Positions 29,629 to 48,713 of a stretch of 64,000 nucleotides of DNA are shown piece after piece (the first letter of the stretch is position 1; every line of letters begins with the position of its first letter). The DNA is taken from contig JAHCIH010000010.1 in NCBI GenBank assembly GCA_026129335.1, positions 1 to 64,000 of the forward strand, given 5' to 3'. Both the position numbers and the translations under genes were made by a program. Below the pieces are notes generated by a model. It ran no database searches. It was not told the DNA's origin and saw nothing but the letters and a program-made list of their open reading frames with translations. Source of the DNA: Anaerolineales bacterium. GTDB lineage: Bacteria > Chloroflexota > Anaerolineae > Anaerolineales > UBA11579.

Positions 29629-30987
29629 CTAAATACGCACCCGCTCGCCATAGAGCTGCTCGCGCAGGTTGCCCACTTGGCGGCGCAGGCGCTCATCGTG
29701 TTCCAGCAGTTCGTTGATCTTCTGGCAGCCGTGCATCACCGTGGTGTGGTCGCGGCCGCCGAGCAGGTCGCCGATGGCGGGCAGCGAGAGCTGGGCCTCT
29801 TCGCGCAGCAGGTACATGGCCACCTGGCGGGCCAGGGCCACCTCGGCGGAGCGCTCGCGGGAGAGCAACCGCTCGATGGAGACGCCGAAGGCGCGGCTGA
29901 CTGCCTCGGCGAGCTGCTCAGGCTCCAGCGGCTGCGGCTCGGGGAGCAGGTCCGCCAGGGCGCTGTCCACCAGGCTGGGGGTCAGCGGCACGTTGCGCAG
30001 GTACGCGTAGGCGATGATGCGGTTCAGCGCCCCTTCCAGCTCGCGGATGTTGGACTGCATGCGTGCGGCGATGGTCTCCAATACCGCCGGGTCCAGCCGC
30101 TTGCCGATGCGTTCTGCGTTGCTGCGCAGGATCGCCAGGCGCGTCTCGTAGTCCGGCGACTGAATGTCCACGGTCAGTCCCCATTCGAAACGGGAGCGCA
30201 GCCGTTCTTCCAGAGTGACCAGACCCTTCGGCGAGCGGTCCGAGGTGATCACGATCTGTTTGTTCTGTCCGTGCAGGGTGTTGAAGGTGTGGAAGAATTC
30301 TTCCTGGGTGGATTCCTTGCCGGCGATGAACTGGATGTCGTCGATCAAGAGCACATCGGTGCGGCGGTACTTGTCGCGGAAAGCCTGCGTACTGTGGCTG
30401 CGGATGGCGTGGATCAGGTCGTTGGTGAATTCTTCGGAGGAGACGTAGAGCACCTGCAGGCCGCGCTGCACCGCGGCGTTGCCGATGGCGTGCAGCAGGT
30501 GCGTTTTGCCCAGGCCGACGCGGCCGTAGAGGAACAGCGGGTTGTAGGCCCGGGCCGGGTTCTCGGCCACGGCCAGCGCGGCGGCGTGCGCCATGCGGTT
30601 GCTGCCGCCCACCACGAAGGTTTCGAAGGTGTAGCGCGGGTTGACGGTGAAGTTCGCCGAGCCATAGCTGGCTCGTTCAGCCGGCGGCTCCGGCTCGGCA
30701 GCCGCCGCAGGCGCCTCGGCCAGTTCTTCCGGCGCCTGCGCCGCTTGCCAGACCACGAAGCGCACTTCCACGGTGCGGTTCATCATGCCGGTGAGCAGGC
30801 GGGTCACCCCGCTCTTCAGCCGGCTTTCCAGCCAGTCGCGGGCGTAGGCGTTGTTCACGCCGATGACGAAAGAGCCATCCTCGTAGGCCACCAGTTCCGC
30901 CTCGCGCACCCAGGTGTCGAATGTGCCTTTGGGCATGTCCACTTGTAATTGGCCGAGTGCGGCTTGCCATGCCTGGCTGGCATTCAT
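29629..30987 (-). CDS. dnaA: Chromosomal replication initiator DnaA
   Basis: DnaA binds origin boxes and opens oriC. The 452-residue protein has domain I (1-80, WQAALGQLQVDMPKGTFDTWV), a Pro/Ala linker, and the AAA+ core beginning YTFETFVVGGSNRMAHAAA. Walker A is GRVGLGKT (155-162; the second residue is usually G), Walker B is LLIDDIQF, and sensor motifs ITSDRSP and RLRSRFEWG follow. Domain IV has the signature GGRDHTTVMHGCQKI. GAGGAGG lies 9 nt before the ATG. dnaN is not adjacent; dinB and rnhA follow. Confidence 0.96.
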   Translation of the reverse strand: MNASQAWQAALGQLQVDMPKGTFDTWVREAELVAYEDGSFVIGVNNAYARDWLESRLKSGVTRLLTGMMNRTVEVRFVVWQAAQAPEELAEAPAAAAEPEPPAERASYGSANFTVNPRYTFETFVVGGSNRMAHAAALAVAENPARAYNPLFLYGRVGLGKTHLLHAIGNAAVQRGLQVLYVSSEEFTNDLIHAIRSHSTQAFRDKYRRTDVLLIDDIQFIAGKESTQEEFFHTFNTLHGQNKQIVITSDRSPKGLVTLEERLRSRFEWGLTVDIQSPDYETRLAILRSNAERIGKRLDPAVLETIAARMQSNIRELEGALNRIIAYAYLRNVPLTPSLVDSALADLLPEPQPLEPEQLAEAVSRAFGVSIERLLSRERSAEVALARQVAMYLLREEAQLSLPAIGDLLGGRDHTTVMHGCQKINELLEHDERLRRQVGNLREQLYGERVRI

Positions 30988-36443: not shown

Positions 36444-38492
36444 TTAATCCAGAGCGGAGGCCAGGTCGCAGCGCACAATCTCAACCAGTTCCGCCGCGGC
36501 CGTCTCACGCGCCTGGCTGGGGTAGGTCTCGCCCAGAATGCGCTCCCAATTGCTGCACAGCTGGGTGCGGGATGCCTGGTTGCGGCGGTACATATCCCGG
36601 CTCAGTTCAAAAGCTTCCTGCCAGTGCCCCTGTTTCGCATAGGCTTCAATGAAGGGCATCAGTTCAAGGCTGCTGTTTGGCCCCAGTCCGGCAGCTTGTG
36701 CCGTCCCCCAGAGGGAGAGCACCCGTTGCCAATCGCCGGCCTGGCGAGCCAGCTCCGCCTTCTGATAGTAGAAGCACCAGCCGCGCTCCGGCTCGGGGCC
36801 GAAGATGTCCAGCGGGGGGTGCTGCGCATCGCCCCGCTCGCCGACTAGGGCCAGGTTGGCGGCAGGCAGCAGGCTGCGAAAGGCAGCCGGCAGCAGATGG
36901 TTGTCGGCATCATGGGGCGAGAGCAGCCACAGGCACTGCCCGGGCTCTTCGTTGTACACGAATAAGGCCTTGCGGCTGTCGCCCGAGAAGGACAGGCTGG
37001 TGCCCTCGATGAGCAGCGGCATGCCTGCGAGGAAGTCCGCTTCGGCGCCCTCGAAATCGTGAATGTCGAGGTACATGATGTTCAGCTGTCGGGGGGTCTG
37101 CCCTGCATCCTTGGGATACAGCAGGCTGATCGCGGCAGCCGGCGTAAAGCCGTCCACAAAGACAGTCAGGGCGCCGTCGCCCAGGATGGCGCTGCCCGGT
37201 TCGATGCTCGGCGCCCGCCAAACCAACTGCCAGTAGAAGTCGCGCTGCTCGTCCCAAGCCCAGCGGAAGTCGTTGGTGCGCCGCACCAGAATGGCCATGG
37301 CCAGGCCGAGCAGCACGGCGAGCACCAGCATCTGGCGCCGGCGCTCGGTGACCAGCCAGGAGACCATGCCCAGCATGAATACAGCCGCGCCAAACAGGGT
37401 GGGCAGGTTGAACCTGTCGGCGAACAGCCCACTCAGCGGGTCCCTGCCAATCAACAAAGTGGGTATCAGGCCAAGCAGCATGCCCGCCGCGCCAAAGGCC
37501 ATCGCCCGCGCCTGCCAACCGGCGCTCCCGGCTTCGTCCCCGAATTGGCTCATGAACCAGTAGGCAAGCAGTGCCCCTAGCGGAATCAATGCCCAGCTAA
37601 ACAGCGAGAAGGCGCTGTCCAATTCCAGGCTGCCCGGGGTGACCGCCCGGCTCCAGACTTCAAAGATGACGAAGATGAAGTTGCGCGCCGTGATCTGGAG
37701 CGCCTCCAGCCAGGTGCCCCAAAAATTGCTGCGCAAGCCATCAAAGAAGACGATGGGGTTCTGTTCCTGCGGCGCCTCGAGAATGAACAAACGCCAGATG
37801 GTGAAGGCCAGCACGATGGCCAGATACGGCGCGTAGGTCCTTGCGGTCTTGGCCAGCCGGGCGCGCCAGGCGCCATTTTGTTCCGAGAACAGCAGCCACA
37901 AGGCCAGGGGGCGCAGCAGTTCCAGGCCCAGGTAATACTCTTTGGTGAAGATGTGCAGCCCGGCAGTGAACAAAGCCAGCGCAGTGAATTGGCGCTGGTG
38001 CTGCGGCCTGCGCTGAGCGGCCAGCATGCTGCCGAACGAGACGAAGAAGAGGGCATACAGCAGGAAATCCTGCGACATGATGATGGCCAGCGGCTGCAAA
38101 TAGAAGATCGGGTACACGGCGAATAAAGCGGCCGCCCAGGTCGCGACCCCCGGCCTTTTGGGCCACAACTGGCGCAGCGCCCACCACATGGCCACCACGG
38201 CCAGCCAGCGCGCCACCAGGCCGAACAGGTGCCAGTGCAGCGGCTTCTCGCCCAACAGGCTCATCGTCAGGCTGTACGGCCAGATATAGAAAGGCCGCCC
38301 GCCCACGCTGAGCAGGTGGTTCAGCCCCTCGAAGCCGTAAGTGCGCTTGAGGAAAACAATTTGCCAGTCGTCCCAGTAGAAACCCAGCTGGTTGATGAAC
38401 CAACCATAGGCCATCACCAGGAGGACAAAAAAGAAGGCGGGTGGGCCGTAAGGCGATGCGGCCAGATTTTTCAGTGATTTGGGAATGGACAA
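36444..38492 (-). CDS. Polytopic membrane protein, GT-C glycosyltransferase-like
   Basis: This 682-residue protein has about twelve transmembrane helices in its first 420 residues. An acidic motif FYWDDWQIVFL stands just after the first helix, as in GT-C enzymes that use lipid-linked sugars. The C-terminal 260 residues are soluble and helical, with TPR-like repeats (WCFYYQKAELARQAGDWQRVLSLW, QGHWQEAFELSRDMY). A role in surface sugar transfer is plausible. No ribosome site of note precedes the ATG. tRNA-Pro and its terminator lie upstream. Confidence 0.7.
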   Translation of the reverse strand: MSIPKSLKNLAASPYGPPAFFFVLLVMAYGWFINQLGFYWDDWQIVFLKRTYGFEGLNHLLSVGGRPFYIWPYSLTMSLLGEKPLHWHLFGLVARWLAVVAMWWALRQLWPKRPGVATWAAALFAVYPIFYLQPLAIIMSQDFLLYALFFVSFGSMLAAQRRPQHQRQFTALALFTAGLHIFTKEYYLGLELLRPLALWLLFSEQNGAWRARLAKTARTYAPYLAIVLAFTIWRLFILEAPQEQNPIVFFDGLRSNFWGTWLEALQITARNFIFVIFEVWSRAVTPGSLELDSAFSLFSWALIPLGALLAYWFMSQFGDEAGSAGWQARAMAFGAAGMLLGLIPTLLIGRDPLSGLFADRFNLPTLFGAAVFMLGMVSWLVTERRRQMLVLAVLLGLAMAILVRRTNDFRWAWDEQRDFYWQLVWRAPSIEPGSAILGDGALTVFVDGFTPAAAISLLYPKDAGQTPRQLNIMYLDIHDFEGAEADFLAGMPLLIEGTSLSFSGDSRKALFVYNEEPGQCLWLLSPHDADNHLLPAAFRSLLPAANLALVGERGDAQHPPLDIFGPEPERGWCFYYQKAELARQAGDWQRVLSLWGTAQAAGLGPNSSLELMPFIEAYAKQGHWQEAFELSRDMYRRNQASRTQLCSNWERILGETYPSQARETAAAELVEIVRCDLASALD

Positions 38493-38815: not shown

Positions 38816-39571
38816 ATGTCCGGACACAGTAAATGGTCTACCATCAAGCGCAAAAAGGCGGTGACCGACGCCAAGCGTGGCCAGGTTTTCACCCGTCTGG
38901 CGCGTGAAATCGCCATCGCCGCCCGTGAGGGCGGCGGCAACCCCGACAGCAATTTCACGCTGCGCGTGGCCGTCGAGAAAGCCCGCGCCGAGAGCATGCC
39001 CGCCGCCAACATCGAGCGCGCCATCCAGCGCGGCACCGGCGAGGGCAAGGACGCCACGGCGATCGAGCAGATCACCTACGAGGGCTATGCCCCGCACGGC
39101 GTGGCGCTGATCATCGATTGCGTCACCGACAATCGCAACCGCACCGTCTCCGAACTGCGCCATGTGCTCACCCGCAGCGGCGGCAGCCTGGGAGAGACCG
39201 GCTCGGTAGGCTGGCAGTTCACCCAGGTGGCCTTCTTCGCTTTCCCCGCCGGCGAGCATAGTGAGGAGCAGCTCTTCGAGTTGGCTGCCGAAGCCGGCGC
39301 CGACGATGTCTGGGTGGAAGACGGCCAGGCCGAGATCACCGGCCCGGTGGCTGCCTTCAAACAGATCGGCGATGCGCTGCGCAATGCCGGCATCGGCATT
39401 GCGGATGCCGGGCTGCGCATGCAGCCCAACCAGGAAGTCGACCTGGAGCCCGCCGAGACCATCCAGGTGATGCGCACCATCGAAGCGCTGGAAGACCTGG
39501 ACGATGTCCAGAAAGTGGCCTCCAACCTGAACATTAGCGACGCGGCCCTGGAGCAACTCGCCTCGGCCTGA
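38816..39571 (+). CDS. yebC: YebC/PmpR family protein
   Basis: This 251-residue protein has MSGHSKWSTIKRKKAVTDAKRG at the start, FTRLAREIAIAAREGGGNP, GGSLGETGSVGWQF and the C-terminal acidic domain. YebC proteins were described as transcriptional regulators and more recently as ribosome-associated factors that relieve stalling at proline stretches. The location directly upstream of ruvC is conserved in many bacteria. AAAGGG precedes the ATG. Confidence 0.95.
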   Translation: MSGHSKWSTIKRKKAVTDAKRGQVFTRLAREIAIAAREGGGNPDSNFTLRVAVEKARAESMPAANIERAIQRGTGEGKDATAIEQITYEGYAPHGVALIIDCVTDNRNRTVSELRHVLTRSGGSLGETGSVGWQFTQVAFFAFPAGEHSEEQLFELAAEAGADDVWVEDGQAEITGPVAAFKQIGDALRNAGIGIADAGLRMQPNQEVDLEPAETIQVMRTIEALEDLDDVQKVASNLNISDAALEQLASA

Positions 39572-39576
39572 AGCCC

Positions 39577-40077
39577 ATGCTGGCTATCGGCATTGACCCC
39601 GGCACCGCCATCACCGGCTACGGCCTGGTGCGGCGCAGCGACGACGGCGAGCTGCACGCCCTGGACTGGGGCGTGATCCTCACTCCGGCGGACATGCCGG
39701 GCAGCCAACGCCTTGAAGTCATCTTCCAATCTCTTAGTGAATTGCTCGCCAACCACCAGCCGCAGACCGCGGCGGTGGAATCATTGTTCTTCCAGCGCAA
39801 CGTGCGCACAGCGATGAGTGTGGGCCAGGCCCGCGGCGTGGTGCTGCTGGCCCTCCAGTTGGCCGGCGTACCGGCCCACGACTACAACCCCAACCAGGTG
39901 AAGCAGGCGGTCAGCGGCTACGGCGCGGCGGACAAGGGCCAGATGCAGAGCATGGTGCGCACCCTGCTGCAGCTGCCCGAGCTGCCCAAGCCAGACGATG
40001 CCGCCGATGCGCTGGCCGTGGCCATCTGCCACCTCAACACCCAGCGCACCCAACAGCTGATCGCCCAGAACGGATAG
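39577..40077 (+). CDS. ruvC: Holliday junction resolvase RuvC
   Basis: RuvC cuts Holliday junctions bound by RuvAB. The 166-residue nuclease has catalytic acids D7 (AIGIDPGTA), E68 (AAVESLFF) and D140/D141/D144 (KPDDAADALA), and the QARGVVLLAL helix. It starts 5 nt after yebC. Unlike the usual ruvC-ruvA adjacency, two membrane-protein genes stand between it and ruvA. Confidence 0.95.
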   Translation: MLAIGIDPGTAITGYGLVRRSDDGELHALDWGVILTPADMPGSQRLEVIFQSLSELLANHQPQTAAVESLFFQRNVRTAMSVGQARGVVLLALQLAGVPAHDYNPNQVKQAVSGYGAADKGQMQSMVRTLLQLPELPKPDDAADALAVAICHLNTQRTQQLIAQNG

Positions 40078-40080
40078 CCG

Positions 40081-41352
40081 ATGAGCGAGATCGACCTGTT
40101 CATTCGCTTCGGCGCCGCGCTGGCCATTGGCTTTTCCATCGGCCTGCAGCGCGAGTTCTCGCACCGTGAAGGTCGCGATGCGCACAGTATCGATACCCTG
40201 CCCGCCGGCGAGCGCACCTTCGCCCTGTTGGCGCTCAGTGGGGCGCTGGCCGCCATGGCCTCCGACCAGTTCCGCCAGCCGCTGATCTTCTTCGGCCTGG
40301 TGCTGGCGATAGGCCTGCTGTTGGTGGTGGGCTACGTGTTCAAGGCGCGCAACCAGCACTTCGGCATGACCACCGAGGCGGCCATCCTGGTCAGCGTGCT
40401 CTTGGGCGGGCTGTGCTATTGGAACTATGTGGGCCTGGCGGTGGCGTTGGGCGTCACCACAGTGCTGATCCTGTCCATCAAGCTGGAGACCGACCGGCTG
40501 GTCACCGCGCTGACCCGTGAAGATATCTTTGCCGCGCTGCAGTTCGCCGTGATCAGCATCATCGTGCTGCCGCTGCTGCCCAGTGGGCCGCTGCTGCCGC
40601 CGCCATTCGATGTGCTCGACCCCTTCAAGATCTGGCTGATGGTCGTGTTTATCTCCGGCATCAGCTTTCTCGGCTATTTGATGATCAAGCTGTTGGGCAA
40701 CGAAACCGGCATCGGCATCACCGGGGTGTTGGGCGGCCTGGTCTCCAGCACCGCGGTCACCCTGGCGCTCTCGCGGCGCAGCAAAGAGAAGGGCATTGTG
40801 CGCGCCTTGGCGGTGGCCATCATGGTCGCCTGGGCGATCATGTTCGCCCGCGTCCTCTTCCAAGTCGCCGTGCTCAACATCGAACTGCTGCGTGCCTCCT
40901 GGTTCCCGCTGCTGGCCAGCGGGCTGGCCGGCTTTGGCTTCGCCGCCTACCTGTGGTTCTCCCGCCCGCGCAGCCCGGCCAATGGACTGGTGCAGTTCAG
41001 CAACCCGTTCAGCCTGGGCACCGCGCTGGGCTTCGGGTTGATCTACGCTATGGTGCTGCTGGTCTCGCGCGCTGCCCAACTCTACCTGGGTGACCAGGGT
41101 GTTTTGCTTTCCAGCTTCATCGCCGGCTTCGCCGACGTCAACGCCATCACCCTCACCCTGGTGGAGCTGACCAACAATGGCGGCCTGAGCACGCAGGTTG
41201 CCACCCAGGGCCTGGTGCTCGCCGCGGTGACCAACACGGTCTTCAAGGGCCTGCTCATGCTGCAGCTCGGCTCCCAGGGCCTGCGCAAGACCCTGCTGCC
41301 GGGCCTGGCGCTGATCCTGTTGGTGGCGGCGGTCACGGTCGGGCTCTTTTAG
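40081..41352 (+). CDS. MgtC/SapB-DUF4010 membrane protein, copy 1
   Basis: This 423-residue protein has an N-terminal MgtC/SapB domain (about 1-140: IRFGAALAIGFSIGLQREFSHREG, AGERTFALLALSGALAA) and a C-terminal DUF4010 domain (WLMVVFISGISFLGYLMIKLLG, GGLVSSTAVTLALS, GFADVNAITLTLVEL). It has about twelve membrane helices. MgtC proteins act in magnesium and ATP homeostasis; DUF4010 is unknown. It starts 3 nt after the ruvC stop. It is a paralogue of the next gene. Confidence 0.82.
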   Translation: MSEIDLFIRFGAALAIGFSIGLQREFSHREGRDAHSIDTLPAGERTFALLALSGALAAMASDQFRQPLIFFGLVLAIGLLLVVGYVFKARNQHFGMTTEAAILVSVLLGGLCYWNYVGLAVALGVTTVLILSIKLETDRLVTALTREDIFAALQFAVISIIVLPLLPSGPLLPPPFDVLDPFKIWLMVVFISGISFLGYLMIKLLGNETGIGITGVLGGLVSSTAVTLALSRRSKEKGIVRALAVAIMVAWAIMFARVLFQVAVLNIELLRASWFPLLASGLAGFGFAAYLWFSRPRSPANGLVQFSNPFSLGTALGFGLIYAMVLLVSRAAQLYLGDQGVLLSSFIAGFADVNAITLTLVELTNNGGLSTQVATQGLVLAAVTNTVFKGLLMLQLGSQGLRKTLLPGLALILLVAAVTVGLF

Positions 41353-41376
41353 CCGGCAACAGATTTCCAGGCGGCC

Positions 41377-42642
41377 ATGTTCCAGGAACCACAATTATTC
41401 TTCCGCCTCTTCGCCGCTTTGGCCATGGGTTTCCTCATCGGCCTGCAGCGTGAGCATTCCCACGGTGGCCCGGGCCGCGAGATCCTGGCCGGCGAACGCA
41501 CCTTTGCGCTGATCGGCGCCAGCGGCTTCCTGGCGGCGCTGATGTCCGACCAGTTCGGGCAGCCGCTGATCTACTTCGCTGCCATCGCCTTCGTGGCGGC
41601 GCTCACCGCCATCGGCTATTTCACTGAGGCCACGCAAAAAGGCCGGGTGGGCATCACCAGCGAGGTCTCCGTTCTGTTGGCCATGCTGCTGGGCGGCCTG
41701 AGCTATTGGAATTACCTCGGCCTGGCGGTGGCCGCGGCCATCGGCGCCACGTTGCTGCTCTCGCTGAAGATCGAGACGGACAAGTTCGTTGCCGCGCTGA
41801 CCCGCGAAGACATCCTCGCCGCCCTGCAGTTCGCCGCGGTGACCGCCATCGTGTTGCCCATCCTGCCCAACACGCCGCTGGGGCCGCCGCCGCTGGATGT
41901 GCTCAACCCGTTCAATATCTGGCTGATGGTCGTGTTCATCTCCGGCATCAGCTTCCTCGGCTACGTGCTGATCAAGCTGCTCGGGGCCGACCACGGCATC
42001 CGCATCACCGGCTTCCTCGGCGGCCTGGTCTCCAGCACCGCGGTGACGCTCTCCTTCGCCCAGCGCAGCATCAAGCTGCCCAAGCTGGCCAAGCCGTTCG
42101 CCCTGGCCATCCTGGTCGCCTGGACGATGATGTTTGCGCGCGTGATGGTGGAGGTAGCCGTGGTCAACCGCGACCTGCTGCGCGTGGTCTGGCCGCCGGT
42201 GGTCGCTTCCGGCCTGGCCGGGCTGGGCTACGCGGTCTTCCTGATGCTGGCCAAGCGCCGCAGCGACCAGGACGCGGTGCACTTCTCCAACCCGTTTGAC
42301 CTGCTTTCCGCGCTGCGTTTTGGCCTGCTCTACGCCGCAGTGCTGCTGATGGCGCGCAGCGCCCAGGTCTACCTGGGCGATACCGGCGTGCTGCTGGCCG
42401 GCTTCCTCTCCGGCCTGGCCGATGTGGACGCCATCACGCTCTCCCTGGCGGAGTTGGCGCGCAGCGGCGGCCTGAGCCTGGACCTGGCGGCCAAGGCGCT
42501 GGTCAACGCCGTCATGGCCAACACGCTGGTCAAAGGAGGCATGGTGCTGTTGGCCGGCTCGGCCAGCCTGCGCCGTGCCGTGCTGCCCGGGCTGGTACTG
42601 ATCCTGGTCGTGGGGCTGGGCACAGCCTACTGGTTGCTATGA
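41377..42642 (+). CDS. MgtC/SapB-DUF4010 membrane protein, copy 2
   Basis: This 421-residue protein is a clear paralogue of the upstream gene, colinear over its whole length: FRLFAALAMGFLIGLQREHSH, AGERTFALIGASGFLAALMSDQFGQ, VFISGISFLGY, GGLVSSTAVTLSF and GLADVDAITLSLAELA. The pair arose by tandem duplication. Its last codon overlaps the ruvA start (ATGA), so it is translationally coupled to a DNA-repair gene. The two may form a heterodimer in the membrane, which is speculation. Confidence 0.82.
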   Translation: MFQEPQLFFRLFAALAMGFLIGLQREHSHGGPGREILAGERTFALIGASGFLAALMSDQFGQPLIYFAAIAFVAALTAIGYFTEATQKGRVGITSEVSVLLAMLLGGLSYWNYLGLAVAAAIGATLLLSLKIETDKFVAALTREDILAALQFAAVTAIVLPILPNTPLGPPPLDVLNPFNIWLMVVFISGISFLGYVLIKLLGADHGIRITGFLGGLVSSTAVTLSFAQRSIKLPKLAKPFALAILVAWTMMFARVMVEVAVVNRDLLRVVWPPVVASGLAGLGYAVFLMLAKRRSDQDAVHFSNPFDLLSALRFGLLYAAVLLMARSAQVYLGDTGVLLAGFLSGLADVDAITLSLAELARSGGLSLDLAAKALVNAVMANTLVKGGMVLLAGSASLRRAVLPGLVLILVVGLGTAYWLL

Positions 42643-43217
42643 TCGCTTCACTGAGCGGGCGGGTGGCCCAAATCGACGAGAGCGGCCTGGTGCTGGAGTT
42701 GTCCGGCGTGGGTTACCGCGTCAGCGTGCCCACGCCATTGCTGGAGGAGGCCCAGGTGGGCCAAACCCTGTTCGTGCACACCCACCTGGTGGTGCGCGAG
42801 AACGAGCTAAGCTTGTATGGTTTCGCCACGCTGGAGGCACGCCAGTTGTTCAGCCTGCTGCTGGGCGTGGACCGCGTAGGCCCGCGGCTGGCGCTGGCGC
42901 TGCTCTCACGGCTGGCGCCGGCCGCGCTGCGCGCCGCCGTGCTGGCCGGCGACAGCGCCATGATCGCCAAGGTGCCCGGGGTGGGCGCCAAGACGGCGCA
43001 GAAGATCGTGCTGCACCTGGCCGACAAAGTGCAGCCCGGCGAGGGCGACACGGCGGCCTGGGAGCGCCAGACCAGCGACAGCGACCTGCTCGCCGCGCTC
43101 ACCGGCTTGGGCTACAGCGTGGTCGAAGCGCAAACCGCCCTGCAGTCGCTGCCGGAAGACGCCCCCGATGATTTGGAAGAAAGATTGAAACTGGCTTTGC
43201 GCTACTTTGGCCGTTGA
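42639..43217 (+). CDS. ruvA: Holliday junction DNA helicase subunit RuvA
   Basis: RuvA binds the four-way junction and loads RuvB. The 192-residue protein has domain I (MIASLSGRVAQIDESGLVLELSGVGYRVSVP), tandem helix-hairpin-helix motifs (LLGVDRVGPRLALALLSRL, KVPGVGAKTAQKIVLHL) and the mobile C-terminal domain III (DLLAALTGLGYSVVEAQTAL). Its start overlaps the stop of the membrane-protein gene and its end overlaps the convergent J-domain gene by 16 nt. ruvB is not in the window. Confidence 0.95.
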   Translation: MIASLSGRVAQIDESGLVLELSGVGYRVSVPTPLLEEAQVGQTLFVHTHLVVRENELSLYGFATLEARQLFSLLLGVDRVGPRLALALLSRLAPAALRAAVLAGDSAMIAKVPGVGAKTAQKIVLHLADKVQPGEGDTAAWERQTSDSDLLAALTGLGYSVVEAQTALQSLPEDAPDDLEERLKLALRYFGR

Positions 43218-44026
43218 TTGCCGGCCGGGCCCTCAAGTTCCACCCCCAACCCCAACAATTGCTCCTCCAGCTCGCTGATCCGCGCCCGCACGTCGCTCTC
43301 CATCTCGGCGATGGGGTCGCGCCGCCCGCTGCGATCGGCTTTGCTCTCGGAGTGCATCTGCATCGCCGGTGAGAGGTCCAGCTCGCGGATGGTGTTCTCC
43401 ACCTCAAAGATCATCGTATCCAACTGGCGCAGCTCCAGCGTCAGGCGGGCCAGTTGGGCTTCCGAAGCCTGGCTGGGCGTCGTCGCGCCCGCAGGGTGGC
43501 TTTTATCCAACGCTTGCAGCGTTTCCAGGTCTTTGTTCATATAGGCCTGGTTGATCTGCGCCATCACTTCTTCATGCTCTTTCTTCTCGGCTTCACTGGC
43601 CGCCAGGTCAGGGTGGTAGCGCTTGGCCAACTGGCGGAACAGCTCGCGCAGCTTGCGCTCGTAGTCCGGGTCTTTTGGTGCGGCCTGCTTCTTGGCGGGC
43701 AGGCGTTCTTCGCCCTCATCTACCGGCTCGCCGGCCGCGGCGGTTCCGCCGCGACCCAGCCGGTTGGCTTGCCAGCCGCTGGGCGGCGGAGCCTGGTCGG
43801 CGAGCAGCTCGTCCAACATCTGGCGCAGGCGGGCCTGCTGCTTCTGCAGCGGGGCCACCCGCCGGTTGTAGACCTGGGTGAATTCGTGGATCGCCCGCCG
43901 GGTGTTGCTCAGTTCGATCTCCAGCAGGTCCAGGTACTCACGCCGGCGCTCCACTTTGGCGCGCAAAGTGCCCAGGTCCGGGTGCACCGTAGTCGAAAGG
44001 CTGGTTTTGGAGCGTTTGGCGTTCAT
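43202..44026 (-). CDS. Coiled-coil protein with central J domain
   Basis: This 274-residue protein has an N-terminal coiled coil (about 20-75), a linker, and a DnaJ J-domain core at about 122-168. The J core shows YERKLRELFRQLAKRYHPDLA with the HPD motif, then EVMAQINQAYMNKDLETLQ. A second coiled coil with LELRQLDTMIFEVENTIRELDL and a C-terminal DVRARISELEEQLLGLG segment follow. The HPD motif should stimulate an Hsp70. No glycine/phenylalanine or zinc domain is present, so it is a specialised J protein. It is convergent with ruvA and divergent from atpA. Confidence 0.78.
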   Translation of the reverse strand: MNAKRSKTSLSTTVHPDLGTLRAKVERRREYLDLLEIELSNTRRAIHEFTQVYNRRVAPLQKQQARLRQMLDELLADQAPPPSGWQANRLGRGGTAAAGEPVDEGEERLPAKKQAAPKDPDYERKLRELFRQLAKRYHPDLAASEAEKKEHEEVMAQINQAYMNKDLETLQALDKSHPAGATTPSQASEAQLARLTLELRQLDTMIFEVENTIRELDLSPAMQMHSESKADRSGRRDPIAEMESDVRARISELEEQLLGLGVELEGPAGNQRPK

Positions 44027-44139: not shown

Positions 44140-44177
44140 CAGCCCATCAATTCGCCCACCGCGATGGAGTGGATTCC

Positions 44178-45826
<1,649 letters not shown>

Positions 45827-45830
<4 letters not shown>

Positions 45831-45856
45831 CAGTTAACAGCTGACAGTAGACAGTA
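45827..45856 (+). repeat. CTGACAGTTAACAG-type repeat between atpA and atpG
   Basis: CTGACAGTTAACAGCTGACAGT with ACAGT units fills the gap between the atpA stop (TGA, 45828-45830) and the atpG ATG. The atpA stop codon is part of the repeat. No ribosome site is seen for atpG. Confidence 0.6.
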
Positions 45857-46769
45857 ATGGCTAACACGCGCGAAATTCGCTTACGCATCCGCAGCGTAAA
45901 GAACATCTCGCCAGGTGACCCGCGCCTTGCAGGCGGTCAGCGCCAGCCGGGTGCGCAAGGCCATGGACGCCGTGGAGCATACCCGCCCCTACGCCAGCAA
46001 GGCCTGGCAGGTGCTCACCCATATCGCCGGCCAGCCCGGTCGCAACAACCTGCACCCGCTGCTCATCGAGCGCAGCGAGGTCAAGAATGTGATCGTGGTC
46101 ATGGTCAGCGGCGAGCGCGGCCTGGCCGGCCCTTACAACACCAATATCCTGCGCTACACACTCAACCATTTCCGGAACTACTCTGTGCCGGTGCGCTATG
46201 TCGCCGTGGGCCGCAAAGGCGCCGAACTGCTGCACCGCCGCGGGCTGAACGTGATGGCGCAGTTCACCGAACTGCCGCCCGAGCCGCAGTTCACCGACGC
46301 GTCGCCTATCGGGCGCATCGTGGTGGACGAGTTCCTTTCCGGCGGGGCGGATGAGATCTATTTGGTCTATACCAACTTCATTAACATGATCCGCCAGGCG
46401 CCCACCATGAAGAAGCTGCTGCCGCTGGAGTTTGGAAGCACCGAGGGTTTGGTGCGCTCCGAGTTCGGCGAGCAGCCGGCGGCCAGCGAAGGCCCCTCGG
46501 CGGCCTATGCTTACGAGCCGGGCCAGATCGAAATTCTGGATCAGATCGTGCCGCGCTTTACCGCGCTGCAGGTCTACCAGGCGCTGCTGGAATCCAATGC
46601 CAGCGAGCACGCCGCCCGCATGGTGGCGATGAAGAACGCCACCGACAACGCCAGCGAGCTGGGCAACGCCCTGACCCTGGAATACAACAAGATCCGCCAG
46701 CAAAGCATCACCAACGAAATGCTGGATATCGCCGGCGGCGCCGAAGCTTTGGCGCAGGCCAGCCAATAA
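45857..46769 (+). CDS. atpG: ATP synthase F1 subunit gamma, disrupted by a +1 frameshift
   Basis: The gamma subunit is the rotating shaft of F1. The first 18 codons (MANTREIRLRIRSVKNIS) are read from 45857, but the rest of the family sequence (QVTRALQAVSASRVRKAM onward to the C-terminal NASELGNALTLEYNKIRQQSITNEMLDIAGG) is in the next frame. One extra C at about 45911 accounts for the shift: TCGCCAGGTG is seen where TCGCAGGTG would keep the frame. The joined protein would be 303 residues. If only the second frame is used, GTG 45915 gives a 284-residue product without the N-terminal helix. An assembly error, a real mutation, or programmed frameshifting could explain it; I favour error because the gene is essential. 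Confidence 0.85.
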
Positions 46770-48191
<1,422 letters not shown>

Positions 48192-48197
48192 AACCAA

Positions 48198-48256
48198 ATC
48201 TCCAATCTCTAATCTCAGGTTGCTCGACGAGATTAGGGATTGGAGACTGGAGATTG
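48198..48256. repeat. GAGATTGGAGATT hairpin repeat between atpD and atpC
   Basis: CAATCTCTAATCTC and GAGATTAGGGATTG pair with one mismatch around a 12-nt loop. The right end contains GGAG (48249-48252) at good distance from the atpC ATG, so the repeat itself supplies the ribosome site of atpC. Confidence 0.75.
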
Positions 48257-48260
48257 TTGA

Positions 48261-48713
48261 ATGACCATCCGCTGCGAAATCGTTTCCCAAGACCGCTCTG
48301 TCTTCCAGGGCGATGTGGACATGGTCGTCATCCCCGGCTCGGAGGGCGAGATGGGCATTTTGCCCAAGCACTCGCCGTTGCTCTCCACCATCCGCCTGGG
48401 CGTGATCAAAGTGCGCCAGGGCGCTGAAGAGCATCTCTTCACCGTCACCGGCGGCCTGGTGGAAGTGCAGCCTGACATCGTCACCATCCTGGCCGACGCG
48501 GCCGAGGATGTGGGCGAAATCGACGTGACCCGCGCCGAAGAGGCCAAGCGCCGCGCCGAGCAGCGCCTGGCCGAAGGCCCGGGCAAAGACGCCGAGGCCC
48601 TGCTGGCCGCTGAGGCCGCCCTGCAGCGCTCTTCCCTGCGCCTGGCAGTCGCCCAAAAATACGGACGGACCCGCCGCACAAGCCAGTTCCCAACTTCCGG
48701 TCTCGGCGAGTAA
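48261..48713 (+). CDS. atpC: ATP synthase F1 subunit epsilon
   Basis: The 150-residue epsilon subunit has the beta-sandwich domain (TIRCEIVSQDRSVFQGDVDMVVIPGSEGEMGILPKHSPL, FTVTGGLVEVQPDIVTILAD) and a C-terminal helical hairpin with RAEEAKRRAEQRL. It regulates F1 rotation and ATP hydrolysis. Its ribosome site lies inside the upstream dispersed repeat. It closes the F1 operon; an mreB-like gene follows 107 nt away. Confidence 0.93.
   Translation: MTIRCEIVSQDRSVFQGDVDMVVIPGSEGEMGILPKHSPLLSTIRLGVIKVRQGAEEHLFTVTGGLVEVQPDIVTILADAAEDVGEIDVTRAEEAKRRAEQRLAEGPGKDAEALLAAEAALQRSSLRLAVAQKYGRTRRTSQFPTSGLGE

Follow-up and report, generated by a model that had tools for sequence, protein, structure and literature searches.

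In the 64,000-nucleotide stretch of DNA analysed here (the window, positions 1 to 64,000 of contig JAHCIH010000010.1 from an Anaerolineales bacterium), two adjacent genes, mgt1 and mgt2, lie between the Holliday-junction genes ruvC and ruvA. Each encodes a membrane protein in which an MgtC domain is joined to a DUF4010 domain. The arrangement is conserved and inherited in a clade, and other families of the order keep unrelated genes at the same place. The explanation we consider probable is that the junction between ruvC and ruvA (the slot) is a permissive position in a co-transcribed operon, where different families keep different housekeeping-type genes and at least two MgtC-DUF4010 lineages are among the occupants. 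The genes of the cluster and their supporting evidence are as follows.

38816..39571, + strand: yebC (YebC/PmpR family, TACO1), at the head of the cluster; NF001030 equivalog, E 1.7e-93, and Pfam
39577..40077, + strand: ruvC, Holliday-junction endonuclease; PF02075, E 1.2e-50, and NF000711 equivalog
40081..41352, + strand: mgt1, MgtC and DUF4010 membrane protein of 423 amino acids; PF02308 and PF13194, tree
41377..42642, + strand: mgt2, second MgtC and DUF4010 membrane protein, 421 amino acids; PF02308 and PF13194, tree, AlphaFold2 model
41797..42639, + strand: DUF4010 part of mgt2, modelled separately, with two internal repeats; model scores and hhalign (below)
42639..42642, + strand: ATGA, overlap of the mgt2 stop and the ruvA start; seen in the sequence, with an identical overlap in genome G008
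42639..43217, + strand: ruvA, Holliday-junction branch-migration protein; TIGR00084 equivalog, E 5.5e-52, and RuvA_N in Pfam, E 3.5e-19

The gene order yebC-ruvC-mgt1-mgt2-ruvA and the gaps of 5, 3, 24 and -4 nucleotides (nt) given in the initial annotation are exact by coordinates and Pfam; ruvC and ruvA thus belong to one directional cluster, on the same strand and with gaps of -4 to 24 nt. Both domains of the membrane proteins score well above their Pfam cut-offs. For mgt1 and mgt2 respectively, MgtC (PF02308) gave E values of 5e-19 and 2e-14 (69.2 and 54.7 bits against a cut-off of 31.4), and DUF4010 (PF13194) gave 9e-63 and 3e-65 (212 and 220 bits against 30), with profile positions 1-210 covered. 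NCBIfam has no model matching either protein, while yebC, ruvC and ruvA match as equivalogs. The two proteins are 57% identical and are the sole DUF4010 genes found in the assembly of the window's genome (G000; 43 contigs, 72% complete).

The distribution of the arrangement was followed in samples of 24 genomes from the window's family, 121 from its order and 298 from its class. In the family, DUF4010 was found in 20 of the 24 genomes and all 20 carry a copy between ruvC and ruvA, so that an arrangement unique to this genome, which the initial annotation had named as the outcome that would count against it, is rejected. The four family genomes without DUF4010 are 68-83% complete, and in one of them (G016) ruvC and ruvA were adjacent on reading. 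The insert is likewise absent from G043, G055 and G115, though their families carry it. Misassembly or chance packing was also rejected as an explanation of the window: G008, a member of the same genus that is 95% complete, shows these five genes, ordered as in the window, on a 1.16-Mb contig, and 18 further family genomes have single-copy versions. The initial annotation described the membrane proteins as duplicated, which is correct for G000 and G008 and exceptional within the genus. Nine of 11 genus members have DUF4010, only these two have the tandem pair, and one copy is usual. In the tree the product of mgt1 falls together with the lone copies of the remaining genus members, and mgt2 was found elsewhere among the 11 only in G008.

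Across the order, DUF4010 was found in 27 of the 121 genomes. Twenty of these have it in the slot (12 in family f1 and eight in family f8), and seven have it elsewhere (families f5, f6 and f10) and show a ruvC-ruvA spacing of 35-129 nt. In the class sample 51 of the 298 genomes have a DUF4010 match, and yebC, ruvC and ruvA are absent from all 40 DUF4010 loci that were read from beyond the order (39 genomes, several of the loci extending less than 5 kb to one side). Among the 80 best relatives from a scan of named genomes, 15 were flanked by ruvC and ruvA, all of them labelled Anaerolineae, Anaerolineales, Anaerolineaceae, Chloroflexi or Chloroflexota. No description of an MgtC-DUF4010 protein between ruvC and ruvA was found in the open-access literature searched, a coverage that mostly leaves out subscription papers.

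A survey of ruvC-ruvA spacing, as the initial annotation had proposed, was run over the order sample. RuvC matches were found in 112 of the 121 genomes and RuvA_N matches in 110, and in 105 genomes the two share a contig and a strand. The other seven RuvC-bearing genomes lie outside the count, two having no RuvA match and five having the genes on different contigs. Three spacing classes were seen between the matches: less than 300 nt in 69 genomes, 504-982 nt in 16 and 1297-2639 nt in 20. The expectation of ruvC and ruvA normally lying side by side therefore holds in the order, the other 36 genomes all having more than 500 nt. The 20 long-spacing genomes are exactly those carrying MgtC-DUF4010 in the slot.

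The mid-length class comprises all 12 genomes of family f13, three of the nine of f14 and one genome (G116) of f11, and its spacers, read in nine of the 16 genomes, hold genes of other kinds. A SpoU-family RNA methylase was present in all five f13 spacers read (L081, L205-L207 and L209; by Pfam in two and tblastn in the rest). At L081:6496-7320 this SpoU/TrmH-type RNA 2'-O-methyltransferase gene overlaps both ruvC and ruvA by 4 nt, packing as tight as that of the window. The three f14 spacers read each encode an S-adenosylmethionine (SAM) methyltransferase (PF10672) of about 300 amino acids (L202:1642-2544, L203:1445-2341 and L204:1332-2240), and the G116 spacer encodes a PD-(D/E)XK_3 (PF13366) protein (L208:1479-1886). 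The slot thus accepts unrelated genes, and these occupants are the strongest evidence against a magnesium-specific reading of the cluster. Because other families keep unrelated genes there, a shared operon slot seems a better description of the arrangement than a partnership between magnesium and repair.

RuvC and RuvAB require Mg2+, and the initial annotation saw in the cluster a tie between a magnesium-related membrane pair and Holliday-junction enzymes. On such a reading, the MgtC-DUF4010 protein would set an ion condition (Mg2+, membrane potential or other) for RuvC and RuvAB, and co-translation would match their amounts. The magnesium need of the enzymes, the conservation of the slot copy across the family, the very tight spacing from ruvC to mgt and the two MgtC-DUF4010 lineages found in the f8 slot (below) are all in keeping with this, and the recurrence of the protein family in the slot leaves functional coupling some room. 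Against it, the same slot holds an RNA methylase, SAM methyltransferase or PD-(D/E)XK gene elsewhere in the order, 69 of the 105 order genomes have no insert at all, none of the 40 outside loci is near ruvC, and four genomes lack the insert within families that have it. In addition ruvB lies outside the cluster. The full RuvB_N match of the window's genome is on contig C5 while ruvC-ruvA is on C2, and in all eight genomes searched the full matches lie at least about 200 kb away or on a different contig. The label "magnesium-related" itself derives solely from the MgtC name, and the family is otherwise provided with magnesium transporters, MgtE being present in 18 and CorA in 10 of its 24 genomes and one or both in 23; in the incomplete assembly of the window's genome CorA was found and MgtE was not. 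The magnesium-specific tie finds no support in these observations, and we regard functional coupling of any ionic kind as quite unlikely.

The packing of the five genes as one transcription unit, also put forward in the initial annotation, agrees with what was found. A scan for sigma-70-like promoters on the + strand of 38816-43217 found none, and mgt2 and ruvA overlap at ATGA. The gaps and the scan suggest that yebC-ruvC-mgt1-mgt2-ruvA would form a single transcript. Seven terminator-like sites were counted in a 6-kb stretch, where shuffled sequences gave a mean of 4.9 (standard deviation 2.7), so that an excess is unclear. Over the 32 loci where mgt is linked to ruv genes, with start codons picked by script, the distance from ruvC to mgt does not exceed 20 nt in 29 and is frequently a 4-nt overlap. 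The mgt-to-ruvA gap is looser, ranging from -4 to 264 nt (G008 excluded, as its second copy lies between). The steady link of mgt is therefore with ruvC.

The history of the slot copies was examined in a careful tree of 57 proteins, from which a fragment (L001), two short sequences (L131 and L145) and identical proteins were excluded. The main clade contains 28 slot sequences together with an unlinked second copy from G001 (L023), and six slot sequences of the f8 type form a separate clade with full support (100/100). A single clade of slot copies is rejected when L023 is left outside (p 0.0017) and is not rejected when it is included (p-value of the approximately unbiased test, p-AU, 0.16). 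Two independent arrivals as the sole reading were consequently dropped, since L023 falls inside the main clade. Within f8, a single clade of MgtC-DUF4010 proteins is rejected with eight coded sequences (p-AU 0.001) and with 11, three of which were assigned by the analyst (p-AU 0.0001), although the split had been noticed in the tree before it was tested. By these tests the f8 slot holds two MgtC-DUF4010 lineages, and repeated arrival, replacement in place, and old tandem copies followed by differential loss are each possible origins. The f1 copies as one clade are not rejected (p 0.19). At two loci (L084 and L120) RuvC and RuvA group with f11 while the MgtC-DUF4010 protein is sister to the f8 type, a mismatch pointing to transfer or hidden paralogy.

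The second copy, mgt2, may have arisen as a duplicate on the stem of the genus or may be sister to the G015 copy (p 0.23). The mgt1 of G014 is nearly identical to that of G008, and in G014 it runs directly to ruvA with no mgt2, so that this genome has probably lost its second copy. Tandem copies thus occur here and can vanish, mgt2 being present in G000 and G008 and absent in G014. Between G000 and G008 the ratio of nonsynonymous to synonymous substitution rates (dN/dS, NG86 method) is 0.15 for mgt1 and 0.08 for mgt2, compared with 0.14 for ruvA, 0.08 for yebC and 0.07 for atpA. Given these low ratios both copies look functional and appear to be under purifying selection.

The membrane genes might instead be a pure accident, a neutral insertion retained for no other reason than that losing it would disrupt the operon. 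The patchy distribution, with absences in G016, G043, G055 and G115, and the varied occupants of the slot fit this. The low dN/dS of both copies does not, nor do the 72 columns that are invariant across 15 sequences, or the presence of the gene in 20 of the 24 family genomes where the four lacking it are 68-83% complete. We consider pure accident unlikely.

Three points weigh against the permissive slot as we have described it. With L023 allowed inside, a single origin of all slot copies is not rejected (p-AU 0.16), so that ancient tandem copies lost differentially could stand in for repeated arrival. The recurrence of the same gene family in the slot, in two f8 lineages and at L084 and L120, is more than one would expect of a purely neutral slot and speaks for some advantage in lying beside ruvC. 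Finally, the shared transcript is deduced from gaps and a sigma-70 pattern scan only. With these points included, we still favour a slot that tolerates different genes within an operon that is generally needed and co-transcribed, and the window contains a lineage-specific form of the yebC-ruvC-ruvA cluster. The occupant of the slot in the window's family, in part of one other family and in at least one further lineage is the MgtC-DUF4010 membrane protein, which probably carries ions or solutes and would be translated directly behind ruvC. In G000 and G008 the occupant is an old tandem pair with both copies under purifying selection. The benefit of the position may be steady co-expression rather than magnesium supply to RuvC and RuvAB.

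Downstream of ruvA the cluster ends at a convergent gene, which is followed by ATP synthase genes.

43202..44026, - strand: DnaJ-like neighbour, convergent, where the cluster ends; PF00226 below its cut-off
44169..45830, + strand: atpA, first of the F1 ATP synthase genes; TIGR00962 equivalog

The DnaJ-like gene and the end of ruvA share 16 nt, and 951 nt separate ruvA from atpA. F1 ATP synthase genes (44169-48713 in the window) come after yebC-ruvC-ruvA in several of the order's families, whether or not the membrane genes are present. A link between MgtC-DUF4010 and ATP synthase is conceivable, as yebC-ruvC-(mgt)-ruvA lies near atpA or atpG in many loci and Salmonella MgtC is described as binding and blocking the F1Fo ATP synthase (PMC6658541). 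However, atp genes also lie beside yebC-ruvC-ruvA where there is no mgt (L046, L059-L061, L063, L067, L069, L073, L078 and L081), so the atp neighbourhood is independent of mgt. Moreover, five f1 genomes (L048-L051 and L053) keep mgt together with ruvC and have no atpA in the stretch read, and a convergent gene stands between ruvA and atpA. This link is very unlikely in our estimation.

The nature of the MgtC-DUF4010 protein was approached by structure prediction. An AlphaFold2 model of mgt2 built with 63 homologues had a mean predicted local distance difference test score (pLDDT) of 89.5. DUF4010 modelled alone (pLDDT 91.5, predicted template modelling score, pTM, 0.87) is all-helical with two repeats. 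When one half of DUF4010 was compared with the other by hhalign, GGLVSSTAVTLS aligned with SGLADVDAITLS at 90% probability (E 1.6e-6). The half-against-half comparisons ranged over 90-95% probability and E 1.6e-6 to 4.1e-8, which establishes two repeats, a property that by itself is not specific to the ion-transporter superfamily (the grouping that includes TRAP, DASS/INDY and ArsB). Foldseek with the models gave no match at E 0.001, and a sequence search of solved structures gave none at E 1. When the Foldseek candidates were re-compared, nearly all of the first 14 were carriers of the CNT, TRAP, INDY/NaS/NaCT and ArsB types, aligned over 202-251 of 281 residues with Z scores of 6.3-7.5, where the tool's own note asks for about 13 for helical proteins. 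Other carrier folds came next (LicB and a nucleotide-sugar transporter, Z 6.3 over 168-185 residues), followed by receptors from Z 5.8 over about 112-125 residues. Comparison of DUF4010 with a CitMHS profile gave E 0.0099 with one subset, 0.55 on reversal and 0.14-0.58 with the other CitMHS and DctM sets; the positive control, CitMHS against DctM, gave just 0.0085.

As a lead only, the predicted DUF4010 fold may resemble that of the ion-transporter superfamily, with its elevator-type carriers. If so, a carrier-like fold would favour an anion or solute carrier over a Mg2+ channel. The lead is offered for a domain for which we found no functional study in the open-access literature searched. A bolder proposal is that MgtC-DUF4010 is an unrecognised elevator-type carrier and that an advantage of co-translation with ruvC brought two lineages into the slot, linking an ion or solute gradient to Holliday-junction processing in Anaerolineales. 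We hold this to be decidedly improbable.

The window can be compared with several known systems. Most organisms that have RuvC are reported to carry ruvABC as a single operon, and about half of them to have yebC in an operon with ruvC (PMC3403352). The window has the same yebC, ruvC and ruvA content and order as the bacterial yebC-ruvC-ruvA-(ruvB) cluster, but with one or more membrane-protein genes, two in the window, between ruvC and ruvA and with ruvB elsewhere. The N-terminal 130 residues or so match the MgtC family (PF02308), to which Salmonella MgtC belongs, above cut-off. In contrast to Salmonella MgtC, which is also described in the cited account as binding PhoR (PMC6658541), the window proteins add a C-terminal DUF4010 (210 profile positions), lie in a housekeeping cluster and have no adjacent Mg2+ P-type ATPase gene in the window. 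They share both domains at full length, with 35-63% identity, with relatives in many phyla, whereas those read outside Anaerolineales do not adjoin ruvC. Such MgtC-DUF4010 proteins correspond to COG3174. With respect to the elevator-type carriers (TRAP, DASS/INDY, ArsB and CNT), the DUF4010 model aligns over most of its 281 residues and has two internal repeats, but the Z scores stay below 13, Foldseek finds no match and the CitMHS/DctM profile comparison is not significant.

Among unlinked MgtC-DUF4010 relatives no common neighbour was found in 115 loci, some of whose contigs may be repeated. Polyphosphate kinase 2 (PPK2) genes lie within about 5 kb of five such loci in several phyla (L136, L139, L157, L160 and L192; Pfam on three), and CHAD genes within about 5 kb of four (L112, L115, L129 and L136; Pfam on three). 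Some 1-5 kb upstream of the f5 genes is a gene whose translation was recognised by eye as a P-type cation ATPase (L062, L064, L066 and L140, the last being on the same contig as L064). All three counts are given with no background rate behind them.

Upstream of the cluster, the - strand gene at 36444-38492 encodes a 682-amino-acid protein that by eye has a membrane part and a repeat-like C-terminus, and neither Pfam nor NCBIfam matches it at E 0.001. The translation of 29629-30987 (- strand) is DnaA-like by eye, and a replication origin may be near 31 kb.

Within a deeply conserved recombination cluster, related families of the Anaerolineales place unrelated genes in one and the same slot, a caution against taking neighbourhood by itself as a guide to function. 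That a single uncharacterised membrane protein family recurs there makes it possible to test cheaply whether neighbourhoods of this kind ever reflect coupling.

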